Assembly: GCA_937941745.1 (NCBI GenBank)
Contig: CALDGV010000289.1
Coordinates: 1-16,020 of the forward strand
DNA: 16,020 nucleotides
Direction of reading: 5' to 3'
Source of the DNA: an uncultured Prosthecobacter sp.
Lineage (GTDB): Bacteria; Verrucomicrobiota; Verrucomicrobiia; Verrucomicrobiales; Verrucomicrobiaceae
Of this stretch, positions 1 through 14,234 are shown piece by piece; the first letter of the stretch is position 1, and every line of letters begins with the position of its first letter. The notes below the pieces were generated by a model, which saw nothing but the letters and a program-made list of their open reading frames with translations, searched no databases and was not told the DNA's origin. Both the position numbers and the translations under genes were made by a program.

Positions 1-665
1 AGCGTGGGGTCGATGGAACCCAGCTTCAGGTCTGCAAGGCCATATTTGGTGCCATCGTCCGAGCCGAAGAAGGCCAGCGGCCCCACGACGATGAACTTCC
101 CGTCCGTGACATTGCCGCTCTTGTCCGTGGCCTTGCCTGGGAAGACCTCCCCGCCTGCGGCACGCTCCAGGCGGTCCAGTGCCATGCTCACGATGTCGAT
201 GCGGGACTGAAGCTGCTCAGCCGTCGTCAGGTTTGCATTGTTCCCCTGGTTCTGAAGTTTCTTGAGCTGGTCACCGATGGCCTGCAGCTCCGTGACATGG
301 ATGCGGGTTTCAAAGTTGCGGGTGAACTCGTCCAGCAGGTTCGTAAGATAGTTGGTGCTGTCCTCCTTGGCCTTGTTGGAAGCCTTGAGGTTCGTCACCT
401 CCAGGGTGCGGCTGTCGCGGATGCGCAGCACACGGTCGTACTCCTTGCGGGCCTCGATGACCTTTTCCTCCAGCTGGCTGAGCTTCTGGGTCATGGGCAG
501 CTTTTCGGACTCGATGGCCTTGCGGGCCTCGGAGAGCTCGGCGGTGGCCTTGTCCAGCCGCTGCTGGAGGTCGTCGGTCACCTCCTTGAGCGGGCTGGAG
601 GCCTCCTGGGCATTGGCGACGAGGGCGAAGCCGAAGGCCATTAAAATGAGAAAGGACGTTTTCAT
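1..665 (-). CDS. TtpC-like MotA/TolQ/ExbB family protein, N-terminal periplasmic part (partial)
   Basis: Only the first 221 residues are present; the gene continues past position 1. Residues 1-20 form a clean signal peptide (start MKTSFLILMAFGF, cleavage near VANA/QEA). Residues 22-165 are highly charged, heptad-like coiled coil (KEVTDDLQQRLDKATAEL, LSQLEEKVIEARKEYDRVL). Near 185-218 comes a globular segment, GKFIVVGPLAFFGSDDGTKY followed by LGSIDP. As I recall the family, this arrangement precedes the membrane MotA/TolQ/ExbB proton-channel domain in TtpC-type proteins, which support TonB2-like systems, but that channel domain is not visible here. The gene starts 27 nt after the DUF3450-type gene, which itself follows a TonB-dependent receptor; this order supports a role in energising that receptor across the periplasm. 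Alternative: another exported coiled-coil protein. The start is well supported by the signal peptide, although there is no Shine-Dalgarno sequence. Confidence 0.75.
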   Translation of the reverse strand, partial: MKTSFLILMAFGFALVANAQEASSPLKEVTDDLQQRLDKATAELSEARKAIESEKLPMTQKLSQLEEKVIEARKEYDRVLRIRDSRTLEVTNLKASNKAKEDSTNYLTNLLDEFTRNFETRIHVTELQAIGDQLKKLQNQGNNANLTTAEQLQSRIDIVSMALDRLERAAGGEVFPGKATDKSGNVTDGKFIVVGPLAFFGSDDGTKYGLADLKLGSIDPT

Positions 666-692
666 GTTCACAAAGTCTTTGTTAGTCAGGCC

Positions 693-1490
693 TCACTTGA
701 TCTCGATGGGCAGGGGCACGAAGTCGGCGACCTTCTCACCCTTGTTCATGCCGATGAGGAGGTCGATGTCCGCCGCCTGCTCCGGTGTTTCCTTCCAGAC
801 CCAGCCGTCAGGCCCCGGCGTGCCGATGCCGGCCACGTCCGCCGTCTCCTCGCTGCCCGCGTAGTAGGCCGCGCCAAGCCCGAAGTAGATCGTGCGCACC
901 TCCACCTCACGGCCGTCCTTGAGTTTCCGGCGCTCATTGGTCACGGTGATGTCGGAGTGGAACTTGTTCACCTCGTTCAGGATGGCGAGCACCTTCAGGA
1001 AGCGCTCAGCGGCAGTGGCCTTGATCTCATCACGCTTCTTTCCCTCCACCGGCATGCCGTCATACTGCGGCTGCAGCTTGGCCTGGAGCGTGCCGGGAAG
1101 GATCTTCCAGAGCCTGCGCACACGGGCCTCCATCTTTTCCACGATCTCCACCTGCTGGTCCTGCACGGCGAGTAGCTCCTTGTTGCGGGCATCGAGCTTC
1201 TCGCGCTCCGTGTCGTTGGTGGAGATGGTCTTGTTCTCCTCCTCAGCCTTGCTGATCAGCTCCTTGAGCTGGCTGTCGAGCAGATCGACACGACTTTGCA
1301 GCACGTCCTTGCCGAGCTTCCACTCGGAGCGCTCCTTGTCGAGCAGCTTGCGGGTTTCATAGTATTTGTTCAGCAGCTCGCGGGAAAGGCCCAGATAGCC
1401 GGCATTCGCTGCGGGAGCGGGCGCCTGGGCTCTGAGCTGCAGCGGCAAAAGAACCGCCAGGAACAGGATGATGAGACGTGGAGCGTTCAT
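693..1490 (-). CDS. DUF3450-type periplasmic coiled-coil protein of a TonB system
   Basis: 265 residues. The reading frame stays open upstream to 1592, but that extension overlaps the receptor gene and lacks a signal. The ATG at 1490 gives a good signal peptide (MNAPRLIILFLAVLLPLQLRAQ) and a 22-nt gap after the receptor stop. Residues 35-130 are a long charged coiled coil (SRVDLLDSQLKELISKAEEE; REKLDARNKELLAVQDQQVE). The C-terminal third is globular, with ERFLKVLAILNEVNKF (about 162-177), then KLKDGREVEVRTIYFGLGAA (189-208) and a GPDGWVW segment. A coiled coil followed by a conserved 'r-x-x-x-lGxxxxy' globular domain is the DUF3450 pattern. That family is typically encoded between TonB-dependent receptors and TtpC/ExbB/ExbD genes, exactly the position seen here. 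Its biochemical role is not established; it is inferred to be a periplasmic partner of the TtpC-like protein. Confidence 0.78.
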   Translation of the reverse strand: MNAPRLIILFLAVLLPLQLRAQAPAPAANAGYLGLSRELLNKYYETRKLLDKERSEWKLGKDVLQSRVDLLDSQLKELISKAEEENKTISTNDTEREKLDARNKELLAVQDQQVEIVEKMEARVRRLWKILPGTLQAKLQPQYDGMPVEGKKRDEIKATAAERFLKVLAILNEVNKFHSDITVTNERRKLKDGREVEVRTIYFGLGAAYYAGSEETADVAGIGTPGPDGWVWKETPEQAADIDLLIGMNKGEKVADFVPLPIEIK

Positions 1491-1512
1491 AAGGATGGGG
1501 AAGGTTGCAGAG

Positions 1513-4500
1513 TCACCACTTGCCGGTAAGGCCGAGGGAGTAGCCGGTGCCGTTGTAAGTGACGGCAAAGGGCAGGCCGCCGTCGAAGACACGCTGGCGG
1601 GGTTCGTTCAGAAGGTTGGTGGCCCGGAAATTGAGGGTCCAGCGCTCGTTCAGCTTCTTGCTGAGGTTCAGGTCGAGCGAGGTGAACGGCCGCTGGTAGA
1701 TGTCGGGCGTGAGGTTGGACTCAAAACGTCCGCCCACCGTGTGCAGCATAGGACCCGTAACGTTCAACAGCAGGCTGGCGACCACGCCGGAATCCTTGTG
1801 ATCGTAGGTGAGGCTGGTGTTGAAGGTGTAGTCGGGCTGCCCCTGAAGGGGGCGGTCGCGGGAAAAGCCCGCCTGGCGGCGGATGAGGGCGCTGTCCTCG
1901 CTCAGCTGCACCTTGGAGAACACGTAGCCGAAGTTGAAGCCCCAGGTGAAGGGGTGCAGCTCCTCGACCAGGTTCTCCAGCTTGTAGTAGCCCTCAAGCT
2001 CGAAGCCGTAGAGCGTGGCGCTCTCCTCGTTTCTCGCGGTGTTGAAGACGCCGAGGTTCACAAATTCAATCGGCTTGTCGATGAGCTTGGAGAAGAAGGA
2101 CACCGCGAACTGGTTGCCGTTTGTGGGAGCGTATTCGTAGCGGAGGTCGAAGTTGATGATGTCGGACATCTCCAGCTCCGGGTTGCCGACGAAGAAGTTC
2201 CCGGTCTCCGGATCGCGGGAGAAGACCACGGCGATTTCCTTGAAGGTGGGCCGGGCGACGGACTGGCTGACGGCGGCACGGATGGTGGAGGATTCGCTGA
2301 CCTCCCATTTGGTGGAGATGGAGGGGAGGACATCAATGCGGTCGATCTCGAAATCGAGGCTGCCAAACTGACCGAGGAAGTTCCCCGCGCCGCCGCCTGA
2401 GGCGAACTGGGCGACATCAACGCTGATCAAGGTGGACTCCACGCGAGCGCCAAAGGTGGTTTCGAAGTCGTCAGACTTGAAAGTGAACTGACCGTAAGCC
2501 GCCGGAATGACCTGGGTGGCCTCGTAAGTCTCGATGGGCGGCACGTTGAAGGCGCGGGAGAGGAAGAAGTTGTCGCGGATGCGGAATGTTCCCGGTGCAG
2601 CCGTGGGGATGAGAACCGAATCAATCAGGTCCAGGTCCCCGATAAGGTCGCCCAGGGTCAGGGTCTGCGCGTTGTTGGCCGTCGGAGCACCGAGAATCGG
2701 CCCTCCGGGAGTGACGTTGAGGTAGTCCGCGATCAGCGTGGCGGAGGGCAGGCCGGAGTACTCGAAGTTATCGCTGCGGTATTTGCGGGTGCTGTAGTCG
2801 AAGGCGCCACCGAACTTGAAGATCACGCCGGGACCGCCTGCTGCGGCAGATTCATCGAGCGGAATTTCCGCATTGAGGGCGATGTTGTAATTGGTGTCAT
2901 CCAGCCGCCGCCAGACACGCTCCAGGTCGGGTGGAGCAGGATCCCCGGTGCCGACATAGTCGTTGAGCGCGTAAGAATAGGCATAGTTGGCCTTGCGCAG
3001 GTCCGGCTGGTCCTGCGAGCTCATGCTGTAGGAGACAAGCCAGTCAATCTTGGCCCCGGCAATGCCGTCGATGCCATGCTGCCCGGCAAGCTGCAGCGTC
3101 TGCAGGCGGCGCTCCGTGTAGTACATGAACTCGCGGAAGATGACGATCTCCTCCTGATCAATGGGGATGCCGTTGTCCAGCGTGCCGAGCACGGCCGTCT
3201 CACCGATGCTGAAAATGGCATCGTCCTGGGCGGAGACGTTCGCAAAGTAGGTGAGCGTGATGCTGTCCTCTGGCGAGAACTCAAGGGAGGCGCTGAGCAG
3301 GGCACCGGCAAGGAGGCTTTCCTGACCGCGTGCAAACTGGAACTGCTCCGTGGCCACCGGCGTGCCTGCCGCAGCATTCGCGAAGCCGCGGACACCTTCC
3401 TCCATGACGTATTTCTTGCTGTAGGTGAAGCCGCCGAGCAGGCCGAGCGTGCCCCCCATGAAGTCCTCCACCCGAGTGCCCGCCATGACGCTGAGGCTGA
3501 AGTCCATCGGCGCCTCCTTGTAGCTGGTGCCCATGGGACGCCCGTTGAGGGAGCTGGCGGCACGGAGGCGGTTGCGATGCGCGATGTAGCCAGGGTCGTT
3601 GGGGTTGAGAGGATTCTGCGAAGCATCCCCGAGGTATTCGCGAGGATCGGTCGGCAATGCGTTCACATCCGACATGAAGGACGGCAGCGCACGTGAGCCC
3701 GCACTGCCCAGGAAGCCCGTGCCACCGCCTTTGTAGCTGAGGAAGTCGCTGCGACCGGTGGAGTTGGAATTGCTGCCGTAAGAGGTGGAGACGTGGAAGA
3801 AAGGCTCGTCCGGCACGCGCTTGGTGACGATGTTCAAGTAGCCGCCCGTGACCTCACCCGGCATGGAGGGAGTGACGGTCTTGGCGCTGACGATGGTCTC
3901 GACGAGGCCCGTGGGGAAGATGTCGATGTTCACCGCGCGCTTGTCCGGATCAGAACTGGGCAGGCGCGCGCCGTTGAGCACAACCACGTTGTAGCGGTCA
4001 CTCAGGCCGCGGACGACCACATAGCGGCTGTCCGCCACAGAGACCCCGGCCAGGCGGCGCAGGGAGCTGCCAATGTCACCGCCTGAGCCGGCTGCCTTCA
4101 GCAGCTCAGGGTTGATGGAACTGGCGAAGGCGGAGAGGTCGGCGGAGAGACCGAGCGGCGTAATGTCGGTGGTGCCGGTCTCGACATCGGCCTGCACGAC
4201 GAACTCATCCAGCTCGACAACCTGGGCCGTCATTTCGATGTTGGCTTCTGCGACACTGCCGGAGGAGATCACGATGCCGCTCTTGCTGGTCCGGATGAAG
4301 CCCTCGGCCTGCAGCGTGGCGCGATAGACGCCCGGCGGAAGGTCATTGATGAAAAAGCGGCCTTCAGCATCCGTCACGGCCGTCTGCCCGCCCGGCTCAA
4401 GGATGAGGCCCACGTTGCCGATGGGCACGAAGAAGTCCGCATCCACGACGCTGCCCCGCAGGCCGCCGCGCGCTCCATCCTGGGCATGGACCTCAGAAAC

Positions 4501-4596
4501 GGCCAGAAAGCAGGCCAGGATCCAGCACCAGCCGCACCCTTGCTGAAACAGCGTGAGAAGGGTGGTAAACGGGGTCTTTGAAGCAGGCGATGCCAT
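1513..4596 (-). CDS. TonB-dependent outer-membrane receptor with carboxypeptidase-regulatory-like N-terminal domain
   Basis: 1027 residues, at the large end for TonB-dependent receptors. Residues 1-39 are an extended signal peptide (hydrophobic CWILACFLAVSEVHA, cleavage before QDG). Residues 42-124 form a carboxypeptidase-regulatory-like beta-sandwich (LRGSVVDADFFVPIGNVGL; TDAEGRFFINDLPPGVYRAT), as in SusC-like receptors. A TonB-box-like segment, LDEFVVQA, lies at 129-136. The plug covers about 150-258, with VVVRGLSDRYNVVVLNGARL, DIFPTGLVETIVSAKTVTP and GGYLNIVTKR. The remainder is the 22-stranded barrel: alternating aromatic strands, loops rich in Asp, Gly and Asn, and a terminal aromatic residue (GYSLGLTGKW). 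It imports a substrate across the outer membrane using TonB/ExbBD energy. The gene begins 33 nt after the solenoid gene and is followed by two energiser-type genes, so one transcript is likely. No residue identifies the ligand; iron chelate, cobalamin, glycan and phosphate-containing substrates all remain open. Confidence 0.95.
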   Translation of the reverse strand: MASPASKTPFTTLLTLFQQGCGWCWILACFLAVSEVHAQDGARGGLRGSVVDADFFVPIGNVGLILEPGGQTAVTDAEGRFFINDLPPGVYRATLQAEGFIRTSKSGIVISSGSVAEANIEMTAQVVELDEFVVQADVETGTTDITPLGLSADLSAFASSINPELLKAAGSGGDIGSSLRRLAGVSVADSRYVVVRGLSDRYNVVVLNGARLPSSDPDKRAVNIDIFPTGLVETIVSAKTVTPSMPGEVTGGYLNIVTKRVPDEPFFHVSTSYGSNSNSTGRSDFLSYKGGGTGFLGSAGSRALPSFMSDVNALPTDPREYLGDASQNPLNPNDPGYIAHRNRLRAASSLNGRPMGTSYKEAPMDFSLSVMAGTRVEDFMGGTLGLLGGFTYSKKYVMEEGVRGFANAAAGTPVATEQFQFARGQESLLAGALLSASLEFSPEDSITLTYFANVSAQDDAIFSIGETAVLGTLDNGIPIDQEEIVIFREFMYYTERRLQTLQLAGQHGIDGIAGAKIDWLVSYSMSSQDQPDLRKANYAYSYALNDYVGTGDPAPPDLERVWRRLDDTNYNIALNAEIPLDESAAAGGPGVIFKFGGAFDYSTRKYRSDNFEYSGLPSATLIADYLNVTPGGPILGAPTANNAQTLTLGDLIGDLDLIDSVLIPTAAPGTFRIRDNFFLSRAFNVPPIETYEATQVIPAAYGQFTFKSDDFETTFGARVESTLISVDVAQFASGGGAGNFLGQFGSLDFEIDRIDVLPSISTKWEVSESSTIRAAVSQSVARPTFKEIAVVFSRDPETGNFFVGNPELEMSDIINFDLRYEYAPTNGNQFAVSFFSKLIDKPIEFVNLGVFNTARNEESATLYGFELEGYYKLENLVEELHPFTWGFNFGYVFSKVQLSEDSALIRRQAGFSRDRPLQGQPDYTFNTSLTYDHKDSGVVASLLLNVTGPMLHTVGGRFESNLTPDIYQRPFTSLDLNLSKKLNERWTLNFRATNLLNEPRQRVFDGGLPFAVTYNGTGYSLGLTGKW

Positions 4597-4629
4597 GTGG
4601 AAATGCGGCCCGCTTCATGCCGGGGAAGA

Positions 4630-5847
4630 TCACTTTCTGCCGTCGATTTGATGCAACACTTTCGCCACATTCGGGGGCAGGCTTTGTGACAGAATCGCAT
4701 GACAAAGGCTGATTTCGAAGGCCCCCAGCCTCTGAATGCGCGGGTTAGGGTGGTTCCAGGCGCTTTCGGCGGCCTGAACCAGCAGGACGGAGCCACGCGT
4801 TTCGTCACCCACCTGCCGCCAGGCCATGCCATACCAGGCGAGGCAGAAGGGCTGATGCATCTTTTCCAAGGTGCGTGCCTGCTGCTCGCCCTGAGTGAGC
4901 AAGTCGTGCATGCGCGGGGCGAGCCCTCTCTTCTGCCAGAGCATGGCCATGCGGGCATGCAGGCGCGCCACCTCATCCGGAGGCCCGCCAAGCTGCCCTT
5001 GAACGGCATTCATGGCATCGCGTGCCAAGTCCTCGAAACCAGCGTCAAAAAGTTGCGTCGCAGCCTCCACGACCAGTTCAGCATGCACGACATGGCTGTC
5101 TGCCAGGATTTCCTGGGCGGCCTCGACGAACTGACGCGCCCGGTCCGGGGACGTCTTCTGACCAGCGGCCGATGCCAGCAAGCGCCGGGCGGCCTGCAGG
5201 AGGCCAGGAGCAGGAAGGCCGCGCTTCAAATTCTGCCGCTCCTGCCGATAGGCCAGGAGATCAAAACTGCCCTCACGTGCTGCCGTCACCGCCGTGACCT
5301 CAGTGCCGGTGCTGAAACGTGTCCATGGATCCGTGATGGCCTGAAACCAAGGTGCGATGCGCTGAGGAGGCAGACGCAGGGCATGCCCGCTGACTACAAG
5401 ACGTGAGGCCACCTCATCCACGGCGGCAGGTTTGACAAGTTTGGCCATCTGAGCGGCGAGCTCCCACCATTCCGTGGCCCGCTTTGCATCAGAAGCACCT
5501 GCGGCCTCGGCCAGGGAGGAAAGCAGCACAGCAGCGCGATGATCGGTGATCTTGGACACAACCTCACGAGCCAGTCCGGTGCGCCCACGCATGATCGCCA
5601 CCTCACCCGCCCGCATCAGGCAGCGGTTCCTGAGTTCATCATCACCTGTCATGGCCGAAGCAAAGTGCACGGCGGCAGCCAGTGGATCCTCTGCATCCAT
5701 GGAGTGTAGTGAAGTCTCCGGGGCCAGCCTGACATGAGGCAGCACCTCGGCGGGCAGGCCTTCGAGGGCCTTGCTCACACCAGCATCCGTCTGAGCAAGG
5801 GCAGGCAAGGCAAGGAAGACCAGGGAGGAAGTTCGAACAAACAACAT
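4630..5847 (-). CDS. Exported helical-repeat (TPR/alpha-solenoid-like) protein
   Basis: 405 residues from the ATG at 5847, which gives a signal peptide (MLFVRTSSLVFLALPALAQ). An ATG at 5871 would add eight residues (MIPRPDFA) but would leave almost no leader after the hairpin at 5883-5904; longer in-frame extensions overlap the upstream gene. The mature protein is almost entirely helical, with repeating helix pairs rich in Ala, Leu and Arg: MRAGEVAIMRGRTGLAREVV (about 78-97), AAVLLSSLAEAAGASDAKRA (105-124), VVEAATQLFDAGFEDLARDA (259-278), LHARMAMLWQKRGLAPRMHD (296-315). This spacing and the A-x-x-x-G-x-x-x-x-A patterns resemble TPR or Sel1-type solenoids, but no canonical TPR consensus is repeated cleanly. 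It was not recognised as a named family. A periplasmic scaffold serving the receptor encoded 33 nt downstream is an inference from position. Confidence 0.72.
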   Translation of the reverse strand: MLFVRTSSLVFLALPALAQTDAGVSKALEGLPAEVLPHVRLAPETSLHSMDAEDPLAAAVHFASAMTGDDELRNRCLMRAGEVAIMRGRTGLAREVVSKITDHRAAVLLSSLAEAAGASDAKRATEWWELAAQMAKLVKPAAVDEVASRLVVSGHALRLPPQRIAPWFQAITDPWTRFSTGTEVTAVTAAREGSFDLLAYRQERQNLKRGLPAPGLLQAARRLLASAAGQKTSPDRARQFVEAAQEILADSHVVHAELVVEAATQLFDAGFEDLARDAMNAVQGQLGGPPDEVARLHARMAMLWQKRGLAPRMHDLLTQGEQQARTLEKMHQPFCLAWYGMAWRQVGDETRGSVLLVQAAESAWNHPNPRIQRLGAFEISLCHAILSQSLPPNVAKVLHQIDGRK

Positions 5848-5882
5848 GGCAAAATCAGGTCGGGGGATCATGGCAACACGAA

Positions 5883-5904
5883 ACCCAGGGCTTGCGCCCT
5901 GGGT
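5883..5904 (-). terminator. Intra-operon terminator-like hairpin after the beta-helix gene
   Basis: A perfect 9-bp inverted repeat, ACCCAGGGC / GCCCTGGGT (5883-5891 and 5896-5904), encloses a 4-nt loop. It lies 28 nt past the stop of the beta-helix gene and 35 nt before the solenoid start. Read on the minus strand it is followed by only three U residues, so it is a weak or partial intrinsic terminator, an mRNA-stabilising 3' hairpin, or an attenuator between the two halves of the operon. The structure is certain as sequence; the role is inferred. Confidence 0.6.
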
Positions 5905-5932
5905 CCGCGGAAGGATGTGAAGATGGAGGGGA

Positions 5933-7894
5933 TCACAGACCGTAAACACGGTAGAGGGCGCGCTCATCAGACGGAGTGTCCGGATCCACGAAGCTGATCG
6001 TGCCTGCACCGGTCAGCGGCGTGGTGGTCAGCACCGACCAGGAGACTCCATCCAGGGAGCGCTCCACGACATAGCGGATGGAGGCGCCGGCCGAAGGGAA
6101 GCTGACCTGATGGCGGAAGGTGCCGCCACCGACGTTCGAGACACCCATCGAAATCACCGGACGCTGCAGGTTGCTGGTGGGCAGCACTTCCAGCGCCGAG
6201 AGGGAACCCCAGCCGAACATGTGGTTGTTGTCGCACATGGAGCCGGCGAATCCGGTATTGATGTAACCTGCGGGAAGCACGACTCCGGAGGCCAGGGGCA
6301 CATTGCGGGCGGCGGCGGCAGGAGCCAGGCGCGGATCAAGGCCGTTCTTGGTGTAGAGCGGGCAGGGAACGACCGCCGGCAGGGTGGCGTTGTTGGAGAA
6401 GCTCCATGGCGTCACGATGCTGGAGGCAGACTGATGCTGCAGAGGGGTGATCTGGTTCAGGATGACCAGGGCGCTGGCCGCTCCAGTGCCATTGGAGGCG
6501 CCGGTGGAGCTGTTGGCATTCACCAAAGCGCCGCCGGTGACAGTGCTGTTGTAGCTGTAAAGGTTGCTCCAGGTCAGGCGTGTGGAACGCGTGCCTGCGG
6601 CAGTCTCTGCGGCGCGGCTGATGGTAGAGGCGTTCTCGATCAGACCGTTGTGCAGGGCCACCTTGGCTTCAAGACGAGGCTGCACACCCTCCTTCTTCGT
6701 GCCTCCGGAAAGGAAGGTGAAGTTGAAGACCGCAAGGTCGGTCTCTGGCAGGCGGTCGCCGTCATTCGGCTCAGGGCCATCGACTTCCATGAGCTTGTCA
6801 TACTGGTAGTCGCCAGCGGTTTCGGTATGTCCGATGGCCTGGTTGCCGCTGAAGCCGGACCGCAGCGAGAGCGCCGGGCTGTTGTTGATGGCACCCTGCA
6901 CGAGCGTCCAGAACTGGTGAATGCCACGATAGCCTTCGTCAGCATCGAAGCTGTCATCCTGGTTGGCGGAGGCGAAAAGGAAGCGGGTGTTGCACTTGCC
7001 GCCGAAGAATTCAAAGCCGTCATCCTTGTTCTGGTAGCATTCGAGATGCTCAAGAACCGTGCCAGAGCCGAGGGCGCAGAGGGTGAAGGCGTTGATTTCA
7101 TTGCCCACCGCAGCAGCACCGAGCACGAAGCCACCGTAGCGGTTCACCACGAAGCGCATGACACCGCTGCTGTCGGAGTCATCCGTGCCGCCGTAGATCG
7201 AGAGCGGGGCGTTCAGCACGTTGCTGCCCGATCCGGAGGCGAGGCCTTCCGGGAAGTCCGTGCCGACGCCGAAATTCTGGCGGCGCTGGGCGTCTTCGGT
7301 CAGCACATGCGCGTCCCAGATGCCATCGAGGTCGGTGTCAGTTCCCTGAGTGTTGCAGGCGGCGTAGCCACGGCCGCTGAGGATGATGCCCCCCCAGAGG
7401 CCGGACTTGTTGAAACCGTTGTTTCCTTCCGGCCCGCCAGGTGTGTAATCATTGTTGGCCAGCAGGGTCGTGTTCGTGGCGATGTCAATGACCGTGCCTT
7501 TGAGGTTCGTCCATGTAGCGGGCACAGTGGCAGCACCGCCAGGAACGTTCGTGTCGTTCAGCGTGGTGAAGATGATCGGATCATCCGCCGTGCCGTTGGC
7601 GATGATCTTGGCACCACGGGCCACCACAAGGGTGCCAGGCTCCTCGGCATAACCGGAGAGGGATGCTGGCACGCCACGAATGACGGTGCCCGGTTCGATG
7701 GTGAGCGTGGCTCCTTCAGCCACGAAGATCACTCGGCCAAGGATGTACACATTGTCACGTGTCCAGCGGGTGTCGGTGACGATGCGGTTGTCGGCATCCG
7801 TGCCCACGGTGATGTAGTCAGCACGGGCGGCAGCACCGGAGAGTGCAGCCAGCGCACAGGCCAGGGAGAGCAGTTTGGAAGGTGTGTTTTTCAT
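5933..7894 (-). CDS. Exported right-handed beta-helix-type protein with a DxDxDG loop and a C-terminal beta-sandwich
   Basis: 653 residues. Signal peptide MKNTPSKLLSLACALAALSG, cleavage near AARA/DY. Residues 45-110 are a repetitive beta segment (VIFVAEGATLTIEPGTVIRG; GTLVVARGAKIIANGTADDP) typical of parallel beta-helix turns. Further turns follow: GLWGGIILSGRG (165-176), LSIYGGTDDSDSSGVMRFVV (231-250), and the strongly motif-like NKDDGFEFFGGKCNT (289-303) and NQDDSFDADEGYRG (311-324). At 186-194 an insertion carries DTDLDGIWD, a textbook DxDxDGxxD calcium-loop pattern. Residues 578-653 form a separate terminal module (YVVERSLDGVSWSVL... SFVDPDTPSDERALYRVYGL), a type I associate with exported Verrucomicrobiota proteins. 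I recognise the fold family but no enzyme active site. It is probably secreted or displayed at the cell surface. Its place upstream of a TonB receptor, 46 nt after the Ig-domain gene, suggests substrate capture; this is inferred. Confidence 0.8.
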   Translation of the reverse strand: MKNTPSKLLSLACALAALSGAAARADYITVGTDADNRIVTDTRWTRDNVYILGRVIFVAEGATLTIEPGTVIRGVPASLSGYAEEPGTLVVARGAKIIANGTADDPIIFTTLNDTNVPGGAATVPATWTNLKGTVIDIATNTTLLANNDYTPGGPEGNNGFNKSGLWGGIILSGRGYAACNTQGTDTDLDGIWDAHVLTEDAQRRQNFGVGTDFPEGLASGSGSNVLNAPLSIYGGTDDSDSSGVMRFVVNRYGGFVLGAAAVGNEINAFTLCALGSGTVLEHLECYQNKDDGFEFFGGKCNTRFLFASANQDDSFDADEGYRGIHQFWTLVQGAINNSPALSLRSGFSGNQAIGHTETAGDYQYDKLMEVDGPEPNDGDRLPETDLAVFNFTFLSGGTKKEGVQPRLEAKVALHNGLIENASTISRAAETAAGTRSTRLTWSNLYSYNSTVTGGALVNANSSTGASNGTGAASALVILNQITPLQHQSASSIVTPWSFSNNATLPAVVPCPLYTKNGLDPRLAPAAAARNVPLASGVVLPAGYINTGFAGSMCDNNHMFGWGSLSALEVLPTSNLQRPVISMGVSNVGGGTFRHQVSFPSAGASIRYVVERSLDGVSWSVLTTTPLTGAGTISFVDPDTPSDERALYRVYGL

Positions 7895-7940
7895 AAAAGT
7901 CGTCTTTAGATTCAGGCTATCTGGGGTTCAGCCATGGGCA

Positions 7941-10724
7941 TCAGGGAGCTGGCGTTGGCTCTTCGAGATAAACAGCACCCGAGAGCTGCGTGGCCGGGAG
8001 TCCGGCCTGATCGAGCAGGAAGTAGCCGATGCCGGTGGGCACTCCCTGGATGGGAACAATCATGCCAAAGAAGCTGGTTTTCTTCCTGGCCGTGGCTTCA
8101 AACGAACCGCTGAAAAGCCCGTTCGCTGCCGTGCCGGGAGTGAGTGCCGTCTTTGCAGCCACGGAAGCGACGGATGCCTTGTAGGAGGCCTGCACCGTCA
8201 CCGTGGTATCAGGATTCTGGGCAAAGGTGCCCAGGTTGGCGTTCTCGAAGCCCAGGTCCAGCGTCGAACCAGCCGCGAGGCCGAGAAGAGTGTTCGAGGC
8301 CGGTGCACGGTAGGCGCCTCCCACCAGGGTCACTTCAAAGTTGAAGCCGGCGCGATACAACTTGGCGGCATTGTTCTGCAGGCGGATCCATGCCCCAGAA
8401 CCGGCGATCTCGTTGTCAGCGGGGTTGGTGTTCAGAAGCGTGTTGATCACGAAGTCACCCGTGAAGGCACCCCTGTTGCCATACAGTGTCTGGAAAAGGA
8501 AGCCCTCTCCATTCGGCCCAAGGAAGGTGGAACCAGTGATGGACTCACCGTCGCCATGACGACCCGTGAAGGCAAAAGTGCCGTCCGCCTTGACGGAGAA
8601 GCTCGTGTAACCAAAGCCCTGGGGAACGCTGAGGTTGCCCTCATTGGAATCCCCCTCTTCAAGACCGATGGCCATGTTGTAGTTGCCAAGGTAGCTGTCT
8701 GCCTTGGTGTTTTTGCCATCCCAGATGCGGCGCCAGCCCGTGAAGAGAACTTCATCCATGCTGCCAGCGGCAGTGATCCGTCCCTGGCTGATGTAGTTGT
8801 TGTCCAGGTCAAACTCCAGCAGCAGAGGAGCCGCATTGGCGCGCCTTACGGTGAGGGCCACCGAGACGGTGGCGGTCAGCGGGTCGGTGCCCGTGACCGT
8901 GACGACACCAGCGATCGGCAGTGTCACCGTGCCGAGAATGAGTTTGCCAGAAACCGTGCCTGTCGGGCTGATGATCAGGTTGTCCAGACGACCACCCAGG
9001 TTCGCACCAAGAGCGTCCACCGGCTGCACTGGACCGATGTAGGTGCCAGCAATGCCAGCAGGGAAAGCAGCCACGCTCAGCATCGGAAACGGCTGGGGGG
9101 TCTCGCTCTTGTTCACCTTGTTGGTGATCGTGACCTTCACAGAAGTCTGCCCGGCCTTGGTCGGAATGCCGCTGATGATGCCCGTCCGGGGATCCAGCTT
9201 CAGACCAGCAGGAAGAGGTGCGGCAGCGAAGGTTTCCGCGATGTTGGACTCGTCCGGCTGAAGGTTCTGCGGGATCTGGTAGAAGTAGGCTCCACCCACA
9301 ATCGCTGGAGGGAAGACGACAGGAGCCAGCGTCGGAGCCTTGTCGTAAACCACAAGTGTGATGTTGCCCGTGGTCTGGGAGGCATTGCCGCTGGTGATGC
9401 GGCAGACATACTGATCACTGTCAGCAAGGGTGAGAGCCTTGATCGTCAGCGTCTTCGTGGCAGTGCCGGCATACTTGGGTCCATCCACCAGGGGATTGAG
9501 CAGGTCCGAAGCAAGGTACCAAGCATAAGAGAGCTTGCCCGGGCCGGCGGCCACGGCGTTGAGAGAGGCCGCCTTGCCAATCTGCCCGGCCACTTTCACC
9601 GGCGTCTGATCCACGATGACCACAGCGGCGGCGGCGCTGACGCTGCCCGTGCCTGCGCCAGGAGCATTGCTCACAGACACCGAGTAATTGCCTGCATCGG
9701 CCAGGCTGAGAGGACCCTGGTTCAGCGTGGCAGATGTCGCTCCGCCAATGGGAGCGCCCTTGCTCCACTGATACTTCAGGGTGCCTGCGCCCACGGCCTG
9801 CACCGCCAGGTTCAAGGCACCACCCGTGGGGAGCACTGCGGGAGCAGGAGGCACGAGGATCGTAGGGCGAGCTGTCACCACGTTCAGGAAGATGTCACTG
9901 CTGTCCTCAGCGCCAGCGGTGTTGGAGACAAGGCAGTCATAGTTGCCGCGGCCCGCAAGGCCCACGGAGGCGATGGTGTAGCTGGTGCCGGTGGCTCCTG
10001 GGATGGCCACGCCATCACGACGCCACTGGTAGGCCAGAGGGGCTGTGCCTTCGACCACGGACACATTGAAGGTCACCCGGGTGCCGACCAGGAACTGCGT
10101 GGCCGCAGGAGTCGTGGTGATGGCAACGCCGCTGACGGGGATCAAAGCACCGCCCGTGGTGTGGGAGCTGGCTGAACCACCGATGTTGCTGCCGTTCGCC
10201 AGCGCACCCAGGTGGGCGACGAGTTCAGGAGCACCGGAGTCCGGGCTGACAAAGGTGTCGAGAACCAGTGCCGTAGGTTCAACCCAGCGCTGATTGGTCG
10301 TGAAGATGGCCTGCTGGGTGGCCACAGCTGGATTCACGTTGTTCAGAACCCATATACAGACCTTTTCCCCGGCGATGTCCGTGGAGGTGCTGGCGCTGTC
10401 ATAGTAGGAGCGTCCTTCGTAACTGGCGGTGTGGTCGTAGGTGGCCGCGATGTCAAAGAAGCCGTTCAAAGTGGCCGCAGTGATGGGGCCGCTCTGGCTG
10501 TACACCTGGGTGAAGGCGGCATCCAAGGCTGCGTAGTCTTCGGAGTTCGCCGCAAAATCAAAGTCCGCAGGAAAGACACCAAAACGGATGGTCCCCTGGC
10601 TGACAGCGTTCGTGCCGCCAAGCAGCGTGAGACCGTTCGCGAGGTTGCTCGAGTAGAGATTTGCCGCCTGACTGCCTCCCAGGGAGGACAGCATCAACAG
10701 CGCTGTGAGTGCAAATTTTTTCAT
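7941..10724 (-). CDS. Large exported protein with three Ig-like modules and a putative-Ig module
   Basis: 927 residues. Signal peptide MKKFALTALLMLSSLGGSQA. Residues 21-195 form an N-terminal domain (GTIRFGVFPADFDFAANSED; DIAGEKVCIWVLNN; VEPTALVLDTF) seen, as I recall, in other secreted Verrucomicrobiota proteins. Three Ig-like modules follow at about 200-283 (YQWRRDGVAIPGATGTSYTI; GNYDCLVSNTAG), 287-371 (LKYQWSKGAPIGGATSATL; DAGNYSVSVSNAPG) and 372-460 (LSYAWYLASDLLNP; DSDQYVCRITSG). Each has the core Trp and the D-x-G/D-x-Y motif but no paired cysteines. Residues 463-552 contain LPAGLKLDPRTGIISGIPTK, the signature of putative Ig (He_PIG-like) modules. Residues 555-927 form a beta-rich region with no recognised family (MDEVLFTGWRRIWDGKNTK; TGSTFLGPNGEGFLFQTLYG). 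Adhesive or ligand-binding modules on a secreted protein suggest surface or extracellular action. It follows the 339-residue gene by 43 nt, so co-transcription is likely. Confidence 0.82.
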   Translation of the reverse strand: MKKFALTALLMLSSLGGSQAANLYSSNLANGLTLLGGTNAVSQGTIRFGVFPADFDFAANSEDYAALDAAFTQVYSQSGPITAATLNGFFDIAATYDHTASYEGRSYYDSASTSTDIAGEKVCIWVLNNVNPAVATQQAIFTTNQRWVEPTALVLDTFVSPDSGAPELVAHLGALANGSNIGGSASSHTTGGALIPVSGVAITTTPAATQFLVGTRVTFNVSVVEGTAPLAYQWRRDGVAIPGATGTSYTIASVGLAGRGNYDCLVSNTAGAEDSSDIFLNVVTARPTILVPPAPAVLPTGGALNLAVQAVGAGTLKYQWSKGAPIGGATSATLNQGPLSLADAGNYSVSVSNAPGAGTGSVSAAAAVVIVDQTPVKVAGQIGKAASLNAVAAGPGKLSYAWYLASDLLNPLVDGPKYAGTATKTLTIKALTLADSDQYVCRITSGNASQTTGNITLVVYDKAPTLAPVVFPPAIVGGAYFYQIPQNLQPDESNIAETFAAAPLPAGLKLDPRTGIISGIPTKAGQTSVKVTITNKVNKSETPQPFPMLSVAAFPAGIAGTYIGPVQPVDALGANLGGRLDNLIISPTGTVSGKLILGTVTLPIAGVVTVTGTDPLTATVSVALTVRRANAAPLLLEFDLDNNYISQGRITAAGSMDEVLFTGWRRIWDGKNTKADSYLGNYNMAIGLEEGDSNEGNLSVPQGFGYTSFSVKADGTFAFTGRHGDGESITGSTFLGPNGEGFLFQTLYGNRGAFTGDFVINTLLNTNPADNEIAGSGAWIRLQNNAAKLYRAGFNFEVTLVGGAYRAPASNTLLGLAAGSTLDLGFENANLGTFAQNPDTTVTVQASYKASVASVAAKTALTPGTAANGLFSGSFEATARKKTSFFGMIVPIQGVPTGIGYFLLDQAGLPATQLSGAVYLEEPTPAP

Positions 10725-10767
10725 GGGTGGAAATCGAATGGGTGAAGGGTGTGGAAGGAGAGTCTCT

Positions 10768-11787
10768 TCATTCGGCGAAGGGCTCTGCGAGCGTCAGCGC
10801 TGCCGTGCCTGTCTGATCCTTGAGCAGAAGCGCCTTGCCCGGATGGATGGGCACTGCGCCTTGGTCCGTCGCTCCATCACCCAGCGCACGCCAGCCGCTG
10901 CCACCTGCTCCGCCCGTCTTGTAGTAGTAGCCGGTCAGCGCCCCGTTCTCCTCAAGATAGAGGACGTCCGCCGTGCCAGGCCCCGTTCCACCATCGAGAG
11001 TGGACTGGAGTCCGCTGCCCGCCAGAGTCGTGCCGACCAGGAAGGGGTTGTTCACGATGGAGAAGCCCTGGCCACCGAGCTTGGCGACCTGGCGGCCTGG
11101 CAGCATTTCACCGGAGAAACGCACAAAGATCTCCGGCGTGCCCGTGCTGCGGCGCACCACCATCACACCGGCAGTCGGCTGGATCACGGTATCGTTCTGA
11201 TCTGCTCCGGAAGGATCACTCACCAGCCTCCACTTGGCCGCCGTGCTGTTGTAGAAGTAGCCGACGAGGCTGCCTTCGTTGGTGAGATACACGATGTCCG
11301 CCGTGTCAGGCGTGGCGGCAGCGTTCAGGCCCAGGTTGTTGGTCTGGCCAAAAATGCCCGCCAGAGTGCTCAACTGATAAATCACGAACTCATCACCCAC
11401 ATTGGGGGAGGCTCCGAGAGAGGCTGTGACGGTCTCTCCTGCCGAGGCAGTGATCGCTGCGCTCAGCCCATAAGCATTGGTGCTCCCAGCCTGCTGGTTC
11501 ACCCGGCTGGTGATCTTGATGGCCTTGGCACCGGCAGGGAGAGCGGCGATCGAAGGACTGGCGGTAAGCGTCAGGTCATTGCCGGACACGGCGGACACGG
11601 TGCCGGAGCTGATAATCTTCACGTTGGAAAGTCCCAGCAGGGTGGTCTTGCCACGGAGCAGCTTCTGCGTCAGCACACCAGTGGTGCGGCTGACCGGCAG
11701 CATGGTGTCCTGCGCACGTGAAGACGCGCTGGTGGTCAGGGCGAGCATGGCCAGCCATGCGAGCTTGGATTGGGGTTTCAGAATCAT
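10768..11787 (-). CDS. Exported TIGR02597-like protein with an internal duplication
   Basis: 339 residues from the ATG at 11787. The frame is open to 11898, but only this start gives a signal peptide (MILKPQSKLAWLAMLALTTSASSRAQ). The mature protein is beta-rich. Residues 161-217 and 271-328 are recognisable copies of one unit: DTADIVYLTNEGSLVGYFYN with KWRLVSDPSG against GTADVLYLEENGALTGYYYK with GWRALGDGATD, each ending near V-x-x-x-x-T-G-T. A conserved FSIVNNPFLVG segment (242-252) sits between them. The overall layout resembles the uncharacterised TIGR02597 family of Verrucomicrobiota exported proteins; the assignment is from memory of the pattern and is moderate. No catalytic motif is visible. 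It is the first gene of the minus-strand run, 53 nt downstream of a predicted promoter -10, and the Ig-domain gene follows after 43 nt. Confidence 0.72.
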   Translation of the reverse strand: MILKPQSKLAWLAMLALTTSASSRAQDTMLPVSRTTGVLTQKLLRGKTTLLGLSNVKIISSGTVSAVSGNDLTLTASPSIAALPAGAKAIKITSRVNQQAGSTNAYGLSAAITASAGETVTASLGASPNVGDEFVIYQLSTLAGIFGQTNNLGLNAAATPDTADIVYLTNEGSLVGYFYNSTAAKWRLVSDPSGADQNDTVIQPTAGVMVVRRSTGTPEIFVRFSGEMLPGRQVAKLGGQGFSIVNNPFLVGTTLAGSGLQSTLDGGTGPGTADVLYLEENGALTGYYYKTGGAGGSGWRALGDGATDQGAVPIHPGKALLLKDQTGTAALTLAEPFAE

Positions 11788-11839
11788 GGTGTTTGGGGAA
11801 TCGACGTCAAAGCGCACCTCTGCCGGTGCATCACCGTCG

Positions 11840-11868
11840 ATAAGAACCCACTCACCGCCTCCTGCCAA
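11840..11868 (-). promoter_or_regulatory. Predicted sigma70-type promoter of the uptake gene cluster
   Basis: On the minus strand, TTGGCA (11863-11868; five of six match the -35 consensus) is followed by a 17-nt spacer and TCTTAT (11840-11845; four of six match TATAAT). The -10 lies 53 nt upstream of the ATG at 11787. It is the only well-spaced match I found in the 200 nt between the terminator and the first gene. The call rests on consensus matching alone. Confidence 0.4.
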
Positions 11869-11890
11869 AACCTCACGGGCAACACTTTCG

Positions 11891-11991
11891 TCACCCAACC
11901 AACGACGCGTTATGTGACATGTGAGGGCAGCTGCATCTTCATGGAAACATTTTTGTCACACTGAAGACCGGCATGGCTCTCCCTTGTCACA
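11891..11991. promoter_or_regulatory. Cluster of TGTCACA-type motifs upstream of the uptake cluster
   Basis: TTGTCACA occurs identically at 11953-11960 and 11984-11991, starts 31 bp apart, which is about three helical turns. The reverse complement TGTGACA occurs at 11913-11919, followed at once by a second half-copy, TGTGA. A looser copy, GTCACC, begins at 11890. All lie upstream of the predicted promoter. The density suggests a transcription-factor site, but the spacing fits neither a CRP palindrome nor a PHO box, so no regulator is named. The last copy partly overlaps the terminator T-tract. Confidence 0.3.
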
Positions 11992-12018
11992 AAAAAGGGC
12001 TGCCCGCAGGCAGCCCTT
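11991..12018 (-). terminator. Intrinsic terminator of the M29-like gene
   Basis: A perfect 10-bp inverted repeat, AAGGGCTGCC / GGCAGCCCTT (11995-12004 and 12009-12018), has a 4-nt loop. On the minus strand it runs directly into a TTTTTT tract (11991-11996), and it begins 26 nt past the stop codon at 12045. This is a canonical Rho-independent terminator. It separates the peptidase gene from the uptake cluster downstream on the same strand. Confidence 0.92.
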
Positions 12019-12044
12019 GGAAGGTTTGAAGTGCTGAAGATGGA

Positions 12045-13232
12045 TCAGTCATCCGCAGCCAGGGCATCCATCAGGTATTTGGCAGGCTGGAAGTGCTCGA
12101 TGAGGACTTCTTTTTGAGCTCCACGGGTCATCCGCACCTGCTTGATGTCAAAGTTGGGCGTTTTGTGCGGAGCAAACAGGATGTCATCATGCGTGGCGTT
12201 CTGACGACGCTTGAACTGATCGGGCGTGATGTGGCCGCCCAGATGGTCATCGCGACCCGTGGCAAGGTGACAGGTGCCGAGGACCTTCTCATCCTGGATG
12301 TCAGAACCTGAAACAGGAAGCACCTGGGTGCCAAAGCCAAGCTCGCCAAGAACTCCGGTCATAGGATCATCGAGCAGGCGGGCATTGTGAGCATCGATGG
12401 TGGCCTGCTTGCCGGCAATGAGCTCGCTCTTGATGATCCGTCCCTCTGTGACGGTGAGCTTGCCGAGGGTGCCATCCTCATACTTCATGGGGAAATGGCC
12501 TTCGGCACTGACCGGCACGAAGTACACCTCGCCAGCTGGCAGATTCGCCACATCGGGTGTCGTGCCACGGCAGAGACCATGAGACTTTTGAGCCTCCTGG
12601 CCACCAAGCTCAAGGCGCGCCGTGAGCACGGAGCCATCCTCAAGGCCGAAGTCAATCTCGACAGAGTCAGCGCGGGTCATGGCCAGACGAAGCTTTTCGG
12701 CATCGCGGCTGACCTCCTCATAATCCACGGCCAGGCCGCTGTTGAGGATGACTTCATTGAGGCCGTGAAGCGTGGCTCCGCGGAAGCCGTACTGCTTGGC
12801 AAAAGCCGTCAGAGGAGCGGTGGCCGAGAAGGTGGTGATGGCGAGGATGATGTCGTACTGAGGATAGATGTCCTTTTCGAGGCTGAGCAGGTTGCCGCTC
12901 ATGTCCACGCACTCATCGGGAAGGTCGAGATTGCTGCCGCCGGTCTGAACGTAGGCAAACATTTCTCCTCCTTTGAGGGCCAGTTCATCCATCACGCCTT
13001 CATGCAGGCGTTTGTAAAAGTATTCGTGCGCACGACGCTGGATGGCGCGGGCGGGATTTTGCAGGAAGGCCATGTCCCTGGCTTCGCTCAGGTCAGGCAG
13101 GTCGATGAGGATGCAGATCTTGCAGCCGAAGGTTGGCTGAAAGACGGTGTGAAGCAGGCGGTAGAGGTCGAATTTGGGGAACTGCCGGTTGTCAGCAGCC
13201 GATTGAACGGTGGTCATGGAGGCGGTCATCAT
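12045..13232 (-). CDS. M29 (aminopeptidase T)-like metallopeptidase homologue
   Basis: 395 residues, with no signal peptide, so probably cytoplasmic. Start chosen at 13232; ATGs at 13229 and 13217 are equally possible because there is no Shine-Dalgarno sequence. The C-terminal half carries the M29 pattern: ANLPAGEVYFVPV (E235), LGELGFG (E297), LGTCHLATG (H322) and ATHDDI (H348, D350). These correspond by pattern to the two Glu, His and His-x-Asp metal ligands of family M29 aminopeptidases. The catalytic Tyr expected about seven residues after the first His is not visible (ATGRDDHLGGH instead). The N-terminal 220 residues (RAIQRRAHEYFYKRLHEGVM; DIYPQYDIILAITTFSATAP) resemble only loosely the M29 N-terminal domain. 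It is either a divergent aminopeptidase or a metal-binding relative with altered chemistry. It is transcribed divergently from the reductase gene and ends in its own strong terminator. Confidence 0.7.
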   Translation of the reverse strand: MMTASMTTVQSAADNRQFPKFDLYRLLHTVFQPTFGCKICILIDLPDLSEARDMAFLQNPARAIQRRAHEYFYKRLHEGVMDELALKGGEMFAYVQTGGSNLDLPDECVDMSGNLLSLEKDIYPQYDIILAITTFSATAPLTAFAKQYGFRGATLHGLNEVILNSGLAVDYEEVSRDAEKLRLAMTRADSVEIDFGLEDGSVLTARLELGGQEAQKSHGLCRGTTPDVANLPAGEVYFVPVSAEGHFPMKYEDGTLGKLTVTEGRIIKSELIAGKQATIDAHNARLLDDPMTGVLGELGFGTQVLPVSGSDIQDEKVLGTCHLATGRDDHLGGHITPDQFKRRQNATHDDILFAPHKTPNFDIKQVRMTRGAQKEVLIEHFQPAKYLMDALAADD

Positions 13233-13338
13233 AGGCGGTAGGGATCGGTTTTGGGTAGCGGCAATTACGGGGGCGCAGGAATTTCTGGCCGCGCTTTTCT
13301 TTCGTGAATTTTAAGGCATCCAAGAACGGTTCCCCGCC

Positions 13339-14043
13339 ATGAAATCCAAAAGCGCTGCGAAAACCGTCCTCATCACTGGCTGCACACGAGGCCTGGGCCT
13401 TGCCATGGTGCCGGAGTTTGTCAGCCGCGGCTGGAAGGTGGCAGGCTGCGGACGAAATGCTGACACCGTTGAGGAATTGCAGCGGACATGGGGCGAAGAG
13501 CACCTTTTCCGGACCTGCGATGTGCGTGACGAAAAGCAGGTGAAGACATTCTGCGAAGCCGTCGTGAAAGGGTCCGGCGCACCTGACCTGGTCCTGAACA
13601 ACGCTGCAATCGTCAACCGCAACGCTCCTGTATGGGTAGTTCCAGGCGAGGAGTTCGACCAAGTCATCGACATCAATGTCAAAGGCACCGCTCATGTCAT
13701 GCGCCACATCATGCCGGTGATGTTGAAGCGTGGCAGCGGCGTGATCGTGAACTTCTCCTCCGGATGGGGACGCTGCACGGCCCCCGAAGTCGCGCCTTAC
13801 TGCGCCAGCAAGCATGCGATTGAAGGCCTTTCGCAGGCTGCCGCGCAGGAGACAGGAGGCAGGGTGGCTGTGATTCCCCTGAACCCTGGCATCATCGACA
13901 CCGAGATGCTGCGCAGCTGCTTTGGCGAAGGTGCGGCTGGCTTTCCTGATGCCCGTGAATGGGCACGAAAAGCCGTGCCCTACCTGATCTCCCTGCAGCC
14001 GCGTGACAACGGCCGCCCGCTCACTGTTCCTGGGGCTGATTGA
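13339..14043 (+). CDS. Classical short-chain dehydrogenase/reductase (SDR)
   Basis: 234 residues, slightly short for the usual 250, cytoplasmic. It has every hallmark of a classical SDR: nucleotide-binding TGCTRGLG (13-20), acidic CDVRD (60-64), NNAA (87-90), and the tetrad N113 (DINVKG), S141 (NFSSGWG), Y154 and K158 (YCASK), then NPGIIDTEM (182-190) after the last Rossmann strand. Arg39 in GCGRN, at the end of the second strand, is the position that usually indicates NADPH preference. The substrate loop and C-terminus (ARKAVPYLISLQPRDNGRPL) are short, and the substrate cannot be named. The gene is transcribed on the plus strand, divergent from the M29-like gene with 106 nt between them. It appears monocistronic, as the next gene starts 191 nt later behind two inverted repeats. 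Confidence 0.92.
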   Translation: MKSKSAAKTVLITGCTRGLGLAMVPEFVSRGWKVAGCGRNADTVEELQRTWGEEHLFRTCDVRDEKQVKTFCEAVVKGSGAPDLVLNNAAIVNRNAPVWVVPGEEFDQVIDINVKGTAHVMRHIMPVMLKRGSGVIVNFSSGWGRCTAPEVAPYCASKHAIEGLSQAAAQETGGRVAVIPLNPGIIDTEMLRSCFGEGAAGFPDAREWARKAVPYLISLQPRDNGRPLTVPGAD

Positions 14044-14087
14044 TACAAAAGCAGCCAAGGATTCTCCTTCAGGGATGTCACCGCAGC

Positions 14088-14107
14088 TCGTGCCGGATCT
14101 GGCACGA
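14088..14107. other. Inverted repeat after the SDR gene
   Basis: A perfect 7-bp inverted repeat, TCGTGCC / GGCACGA (14088-14094 and 14101-14107), with a 6-nt loop, lies 44 nt past the SDR stop. It lacks a following T-tract, so it is at most a weak terminator; it could equally be an operator. Confidence 0.4.
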
Positions 14108-14148
14108 ATCATGCATTTGCAGAAATCCCCCCATCTGTTGAGCTGCTG

Positions 14149-14195
14149 GTGTCGAGAACCGTGACCTTGGTCCTTTTGGACGAAGGTCTCGGCAC
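14149..14195. other. Long imperfect hairpin in the leader of the beta-strand-repeat gene
   Basis: A two-part stem. The outer arm is GTGTCGAG / CTCGGCAC (14149-14156 and 14188-14195; eight pairs with one G-U). The inner arm is ACCTTGGTCC / GGACGAAGGT (14164-14173 and 14178-14187; ten pairs with one mismatch) around a TTTT loop. A 7-nt bulge sits on the 5' side. It ends 39 nt before the ATG at 14235. It may be an RNA leader structure or part of the SDR transcript end; no T-tract follows. Confidence 0.4.
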
Positions 14196-14234
14196 AGGCA
14201 GACGACCACTCGACGGACATCGACTCCCCCCATC

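Follow-up and report, generated by a model that had tools for sequence, protein, structure and literature searches.

Introduction

The described systems closest to the locus analysed here, a cluster of seven genes around a TonB-dependent receptor in DNA of an uncultured Prosthecobacter sp. (contig CALDGV010000289.1, positions 1 to 16,020; this whole stretch of 16,020 nucleotides (nt) is called the window below), are the ElpS/Cc0171 pair of Caulobacter, the TonB2 system of Vibrio and the SusCD systems. ElpS is a surface lipoprotein made in phosphate starvation, and its gene, elpS (CC_0170), adjoins the TonB receptor gene cc0171 ahead of gspC-N; homologues of elpS and cc0171 were reported in 2010 to co-occur in genomes, with relatives of cc0170 in Shewanella and Bacteroides species (PMC2996285). 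The Caulobacter PhoB regulon includes several TonB receptors along with type II secretion (PMC11208175). In Vibrio, the TonB2 system comprises TtpB2, TtpC2, ExbB2, ExbD2, TonB2 and TtpD2; TtpB2 is a DUF3450 protein, and both TtpB2 and TtpD2 are required (PMC6957404). DUF3450 extensions on ExbB-type proteins have been termed of unknown function (PMC12505986).

The window cluster resembles each of these systems in part. Like ElpS/Cc0171, it pairs an exported PF28492-type protein, here a beta-helix, with a TonB receptor encoded next to it, and relatives of the pair in Sphingomonas and Indioceanicola precede gsp genes, as elpS-cc0171 do. Unlike ElpS, a lipoprotein whose gene neighbours those for type II secretion, the beta-helix of the window has no lipobox, its gene is followed by that of a solenoid, and the unit adds a DUF3450/TtpC motor and two more exported proteins (genes 1 and 2). 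The motor cluster starts with DUF3450 and then TtpC and, in relatives such as L025 where it is complete, has one more gene at its end, as in Vibrio TonB2; the tetratricopeptide repeat (TPR) gene of the relatives may, from its position, be the equivalent of TtpD2. Whereas the Vibrio system serves siderophore uptake, the motor here is tied to one receptor/beta-helix pair, and a separate ExbB gene was not seen in some relatives of the window cluster. With SusCD the locus shares a receptor carrying CarboxypepD_reg and an exported partner protein; in contrast, no SusD match was found, the partner is a beta-helix without a lipobox and the motor genes are encoded with the receptor.

An earlier note on this DNA had suggested that the locus might be an undescribed capture-and-uptake system. 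Because the pair resembles ElpS/Cc0171 and the motor belongs to the TonB2 (Ttp) type of Vibrio, the core is a pair already known, though little studied; in the openly licensed literature searched, no description was found of the link between this pair and the motor, nor of genes 1 and 2, which are specific to the family. The same literature gave nothing on TtpC in Verrucomicrobia, and the two other 'ElpS' matches examined besides the Caulobacter papers were electrophoresis digital object identifiers. We tentatively propose, with confidence a little short of even, that the PF28492 beta-helix is the cognate exported partner of a receptor class with its own TonB2-type motor in Verrucomicrobiota and Alteromonadales, together forming a SusD-free dedicated uptake machine, that the pair occurs in at least three phyla, and that this family adds a solenoid and two exported proteins behind one operator-like element.

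Conserved order and joint presence in related genomes

All seven genes are present on the minus strand of the window, running from 11787 to 1 (Table 1), and the gaps from gene 1 to gene 7, measured between chosen ATG starts, were 43, 46, 85, 33, 22 and 27 nt. For comparison we used 68 genomes of one family, a set centred on two contigs labelled Verrucomicrobiaceae, in which 16 fetched relatives covered the locus in full (window not counted). Genes 1 and 2, beta-helix, solenoid and receptor followed one another in this order in 16/16 of these, except that the gene 2 domain was present in 15, L027 being without it. The motor genes lay downstream of the receptor on the same strand in six relatives, converged on it in three and stood elsewhere in the genome in seven. 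In all seven relatives without an adjacent motor, the only over-cut-off DUF3450 gene headed a cluster of TtpC, ExbD, TonB and TPR genes elsewhere; three of these unlinked motors showed a separate short ExbB-like frame and the others had a long TtpC frame. One such locus (L020, genome G018), probably from Prosthecobacter fusiformis, appears to carry the five-gene block together with a single unlinked motor. The motor is therefore not always at the receptor's side.

Joint presence and absence pointed the same way. Across the 68 genomes, the beta-helix was found in 24, the receptor clade (E<=1e-30) in 25, on one contig per genome, and an over-cut-off DUF3450 in 23; all three occurred together in 21, none in 42 and some in five. 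These five were broken assemblies with two or fewer of the genes: G030 and G036 on short contigs, G037 and G058 with a DUF3450 fragment at a contig end, and G052 with a receptor fragment and a DUF3450 fragment. Pairwise, beta-helix and receptor were both present in 23 genomes and discordant in three, receptor and DUF3450 in 23 and two, and beta-helix and DUF3450 in 21 and five, with Fisher p values for the three pairings of 4e-16 to 2e-12 that are inflated by shared ancestry. G058 also carries a second, truncated beta-helix/receptor locus (L045). The earlier note had named beforehand the co-occurrence of the upstream proteins with this receptor clade in other genomes as one of the points on which its reading would stand or fall; they do co-occur, and together with the order kept in 16/16 relatives this strongly supports a functional unit.

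In seven relatives (L019, L020, L023, L025, L026, L027 and L041), three recurrent genes not seen in the window lay upstream of gene 1, encoding an exported protein of ~257 amino acids (aa), a lipoprotein-like protein of ~158 aa and a TPR/YfiO-like protein of ~320 aa. Where the motor was absent from the locus (L039, L040, L042, L019, L020), the receptor was followed in several cases by a short protein resembling a zinc ribbon and by one of 444 aa that begins MKMHP.

The pair outside the family

At E<=0.001, the beta-helix family amounted to 2537 proteins among 7999 candidates scored. In a sample of the phylum, the beta-helix profile matched 59 of 387 genomes, and 20 of these, mostly high-scoring and all outside the 68, were opened as loci. 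A receptor lay within 1.8 kb of the beta-helix on the same strand in all 20, the beta-helix coming first in nine and the receptor in 11. DUF3450 was nearby in 13 of them, and 14 had motor genes there; L117 showed motor genes with no DUF3450 seen at the edge of the locus. A solenoid match stood between beta-helix and receptor in five of the 20, and the gene 1 and gene 2 profiles matched none of these 20 Verrucomicrobiota loci.

Plasmid and chromid records gave a similar picture: a match to the window receptor was found within 2.5 kb of the beta-helix on the same strand in 20/21 records, which are not independent since 12 of the 21 are from Pseudoalteromonas. Fourteen beta-helix loci were opened and 13 were annotated. 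The receptor was the next gene to the beta-helix in 12 of the 13, Marinobacter being the exception; the motor stood beside the pair in seven (Alteromonadales), type II secretion genes did so in two (Sphingomonas and Indioceanicola), and three Bacteroidota loci had neither. On Alteromonas pBGP9, phoB, phoR and a phosphate-binding protein gene lay upstream of the pair.

Beta-helix and receptor have also diverged together. Among 50 pairs, restricted to those with a beta-helix >350 aa and a receptor >750 aa, their distances correlated at r=0.89, partly through common genome descent, and the maximum of 2000 permutations was 0.17. The receptor was nearby on the same strand in the window and in 50/50 measured pairs, which had been selected for having both genes.

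An upstream element and a putative operon

In 16 of 23 loci, counting the window, the sequence GTGACRAAAGTGTTNCC stands 102-149 nt ahead of gene 1 with no more than one mismatch, a count to be read with the fact that the element was defined on some of these loci. Four more carried GTGACGGYATTGTTGCA at 99-103 nt before gene 1, and the best sites in L025, L027 and L053 had 3, 6 and 8 mismatches, respectively. As a control, 49 of 6900 random windows from the same loci came within two mismatches of GTGACRAAAGTGTTNCC. Of 10 genomes, six had the 14-base core of the element once and one had it twice; the other three lacked it. The element can be read as an imperfect inverted repeat, and it supports a regulated promoter before gene 1 without naming the signal.

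The short gaps (22-85 nt), the conserved element and a hairpin that stands between the cluster and the preceding minus-strand gene (12018-11995) fit a single operon, so that the genes could be read as one transcript. Terminator-like matches in the whole window were no commoner than by shuffling (9 against a shuffle mean of 11.5), and an Rfam scan of 11500-12300 gave one match, under threshold.

We rejected the element as a marker of a wider regulon. At no more than one mismatch, the 10 genomes held 31 sites, 13 at the cluster and 18 elsewhere, against 11 for a reversed-pattern control, and a wider regulon is not supported because the 18 sites precede or lie in unrelated genes. An asparagine synthase gene has a copy 135 nt ahead of it in the related genomes of L073 and L074. 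At L023:9148 and L025:10680, copies with two mismatches lie between the solenoid and receptor genes and have the opposite orientation to these genes.

Proteins of the cluster

The domain content confirmed what the earlier note had observed in the sequence. The receptor has the order CarboxypepD_reg-Plug-TonB-receptor barrel in Pfam; its best NCBIfam match, TIGR01782, was under the cut-off, it fell far under the cut-offs of siderophore, haem and B12 receptor models, and no solved-structure sequence matched it at the limits used. The ten window proteins gave no match to SusD families in Pfam or NCBIfam, so that the note's image of an energised gate without SusD holds at the domain level. Gene 6 was over the cut-off for DUF3450, the part of gene 7 in the window matched a TtpC/ExbB profile made from relatives, and gene 7 also showed a weak DUF3450 match of 23.9 bits, under the cut-off. 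The window thus starts its motor as the Vibrio TonB2/Ttp motor does, with DUF3450 (TtpB) and then TtpC; ExbB, ExbD, TonB and the last gene would lie past the window edge and were seen in relatives such as L023 and L025, the latter with a complete motor cluster.

Modelling gave a right-handed beta-helix for gene 3 (mean predicted local distance difference test score, pLDDT, of 90) and an all-helical solenoid for gene 4 (AlphaFold2, mean pLDDT 82), in line with the folds predicted earlier. Neither protein matched in Pfam/NCBIfam scans of the window proteins; for the beta-helix, the near-identical protein P0001 carries a PF28492 annotation, as does P0129, the gsp-linked Sphingomonas relative. Seven acidic residues were invariant across 22 beta-helix proteins. 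The closest solved folds to gene 3 include alginate lyases/epimerases, pectate lyases and tailspikes, at 6-13% identity, and the beta-helix profile found no solved-structure sequence at the limits used. For the solenoid, Foldseek returned nothing at E<=0.001, the best hits being generic helical repeats, and the profile gave 7 weak matches to solved-structure sequences, mostly repeat or designed proteins. Solenoid matches in the loci from which the profile was built (L039-L042, L050 and L051 included) arise by construction, and L021 was omitted from the alignment as its given coordinates held stops; independent support came from L041 (E=2e-5 with the window protein as query) and from L048 (E=8e-66) and L131 (7e-75), neither of which is in the profile.

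Export signals were read by eye only, and those of the cluster proteins look like signal-peptidase-I type without a lipobox. Lipoprotein-type N-termini were found, also by eye, in 11 beta-helix proteins of Proteobacteria and Bacteroidota and in none of the judgeable Verrucomicrobiota ones.

Genes 1 and 2, like the solenoid, diverge fast. The note's TIGR02597-like duplicated protein stood as to the duplication, the two halves of gene 1 aligning to each other, but by score it is not a member of that model (Table 1); the gene 1 profile matched no solved-structure sequence at the limits used. Gene 2 is a multi-immunoglobulin (Ig) protein as described, with three Ig_3 stretches and He_PIG in Pfam. 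Over roughly its first 205 residues (about 10110-10724) it shares homology with short PEP-CTERM-like proteins that occupy this position in relatives. Its length varies: the window and several relatives have forms of >900 aa with Ig domains, others have forms of about 215-230 aa. Alignment of five short forms showed ends that look like a PEP-CTERM tail. Three loci with a short gene 2 (L044, L048 and L050) encode a separate protein of 993-1209 aa with the same N-terminal domain upstream of gene 1, and in L050 the conserved element, with two mismatches, precedes it.

The cluster is flanked by a protein whose one match, to M29 peptidases, is sub-threshold (12045-13232, minus strand) and by a short-chain dehydrogenase (13339-14043, plus strand). 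At 14235-16020 on the plus strand begins a repetitive exported protein whose matches to autotransporter beta-strand repeats are weak, PATR being under the cut-off.

Table 1. Features of the cluster and of the region before gene 1 in the window.
Feature	Coordinates	Strand	Evidence
Gene 7, TtpC/ExbB-type motor protein, N-terminal part, 221 aa, cut by window edge	1..665	-	TtpC profile E=6e-79
Gene 6, DUF3450 protein, TtpB type	693..1490	-	PF11932 65.9 bits, cut-off 32.6
Gene 5, TonB-dependent receptor with CarboxypepD_reg	1513..4596	-	PF13620, PF07715, PF00593 over cut-off; TIGR01782 under cut-off
Gene 4, predicted exported all-helical solenoid	4630..5847	-	AlphaFold2 pLDDT 82; position kept in 16/16 relatives
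Gene 3, predicted exported beta-helix protein, PF28492 family, ElpS-related	5933..7894	-	
Gene 2, predicted exported multi-Ig protein	7941..10724	-	Ig_3 x3, He_PIG; alignment of N-terminal domain
Gene 1, predicted exported protein with internal duplication, resembles TIGR02597	10768..11787	-	25 bits, cut-off 50; half-to-half E=2e-11
Conserved element GTGACRAAAGTGTTNCC, 107 nt before gene 1	11878..11894	-	Exact match
Second element copy	11943..11959	-	One mismatch
Terminator-like hairpin and T run, ending the unit of the upstream gene	11995..12018	-	

Discussion

The conservation of the pair and its link to one type of motor suggest how the system may work. The PF28492 beta-helix, on or outside the cell, would capture or prepare a substrate and pass it to its cognate TonB-dependent receptor, which would be powered by the TonB2/Ttp-type motor, of which the window contains the first two genes at its edge. 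This motor would consist of DUF3450, TtpC, ExbD, TonB and a TPR protein, with or without a separate ExbB. The solenoid could act as an envelope adaptor linking beta-helix to receptor, and genes 1 and 2 would enlarge the exported assembly, the gene 2 domain being joined to a PEP-CTERM-like tail in some genomes and to an Ig array in others. That the cluster is a dedicated, energised outer-membrane uptake system, whatever its substrate, seems to us rather probable, and being stated for any substrate this claim overlaps with the glycan and metal alternatives below; conserved order, co-occurrence, correlated divergence, fold classes and motor type are observed, while capture, hand-over, import, location, the roles of the solenoid and of genes 1 and 2 and a single transcript are what we infer.

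Several observations weigh against this proposal. The motor was non-adjacent in seven of the 16 family loci and a motor cluster was not seen in six of the 20 phylum loci. Shared ancestry among the family genomes, many of which are fragmented, is not corrected for in the co-occurrence counts. The window pair is a probable distant relative of ElpS/Cc0171, traced through the gsp-linked relatives rather than by direct alignment to ElpS; by eye the window beta-helix has no lipobox, and the window contains no type II secretion genes, the genes downstream being DUF3450 and TtpC.

As to the substrate, phosphorus-containing compounds are a possible if doubtful choice, slightly favoured over glycans on the strength of the ElpS relatives and of the phoB-phoR-phosphate-binding gene group beside the Alteromonas pair. 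Other observations speak against them. No Pho box upstream of gene 1 was clearly better than shuffles in 10 loci, phoB-phoR stood beside the pair in only one of the 13 annotated loci, and one Pseudoalteromonas locus had a siderophore cluster nearby. In Caulobacter, elpS deletion left phosphatase activity unchanged and ElpS itself had no phosphatase activity, while cc0171 was constitutive and no change in intracellular phosphate was detected (PMC2996285). Flanking genes of the family relatives were skimmed by their first 70 residues only, which does not establish an absence of phosphate genes there, and nothing usable was found in the literature on phosphate and TonB receptors in Alteromonas, Pseudoalteromonas and Bacteroidetes.

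Glycan uptake, in which the beta-helix would bind or cleave a polysaccharide and the receptor import the oligosaccharide as a SusD-free counterpart of SusCD, is a substrate-specific form of the same machine, and we regard it as somewhat unlikely. The CarboxypepD_reg domain of the receptor, typical of SusC too, and its best though sub-threshold match to TIGR01782 would fit, as would the polysaccharide lyases, epimerases and tailspikes among the closest folds of the beta-helix; however, an identity of 6-13% implies a common fold, not a common function. A Verrucomicrobiaceae isolate takes up fucoidan whole (PMC12872454), but no glycoside hydrolase was recognised around 13 relatives, where the N-termini of open reading frames were skimmed with no family search, and the annotated loci instead placed the pair beside type II secretion genes in 2/13 and phoB-phoR in 1/13.

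Metal-chelate uptake is improbable. Here the DUF3450/TtpC motor would serve a receptor for iron or another metal, as in Vibrio, where siderophore use through TonB2 needs TtpB2 and TtpD2 (PMC6957404), and the exported proteins would bind the metal or its chelate, possibly through the invariant acidic residues of the beta-helix; the siderophore cluster near one Pseudoalteromonas locus would fit as well. The receptor, however, lies far under the siderophore, haem and B12 cut-offs, and that siderophore cluster, the only one in 13 annotated loci, is on the other strand.

A role in export or display, with receptor and motor moving or anchoring the beta-helix (and the gene 1-2 products) at the surface and no nutrient import, is likewise improbable. 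The near inseparability of beta-helix and receptor would suit it, and the receptor has the CarboxypepD_reg-Plug-barrel order of Oar, which has a role in protein secretion. It would also suit this role that type II secretion was linked to the release of ElpS and not to its translocation across the outer membrane (PMC2996285). Against it, ElpS production continued in a cc0171 deletion (PMC2996285), and the partner in other phyla has its own lipoprotein signal. A chance run of co-directional secreted-protein genes, to which the fast divergence of genes 1, 2 and the solenoid and the absence of gene 1 and 2 profile matches from all 20 loci opened outside the family might point, is very improbable and was rejected because the gene order is conserved, the genes are present or absent together and beta-helix and receptor diverge in step.

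A constant partner is known for few receptor classes. In the uptake machine proposed here, a large PF28492 family without an assigned function goes with a single receptor clade and, in two groups, with a single type of motor as well, which makes its substrate directly testable. If the proposal is true, DUF3450/TtpC motors would gain a role beyond iron uptake in Vibrio.

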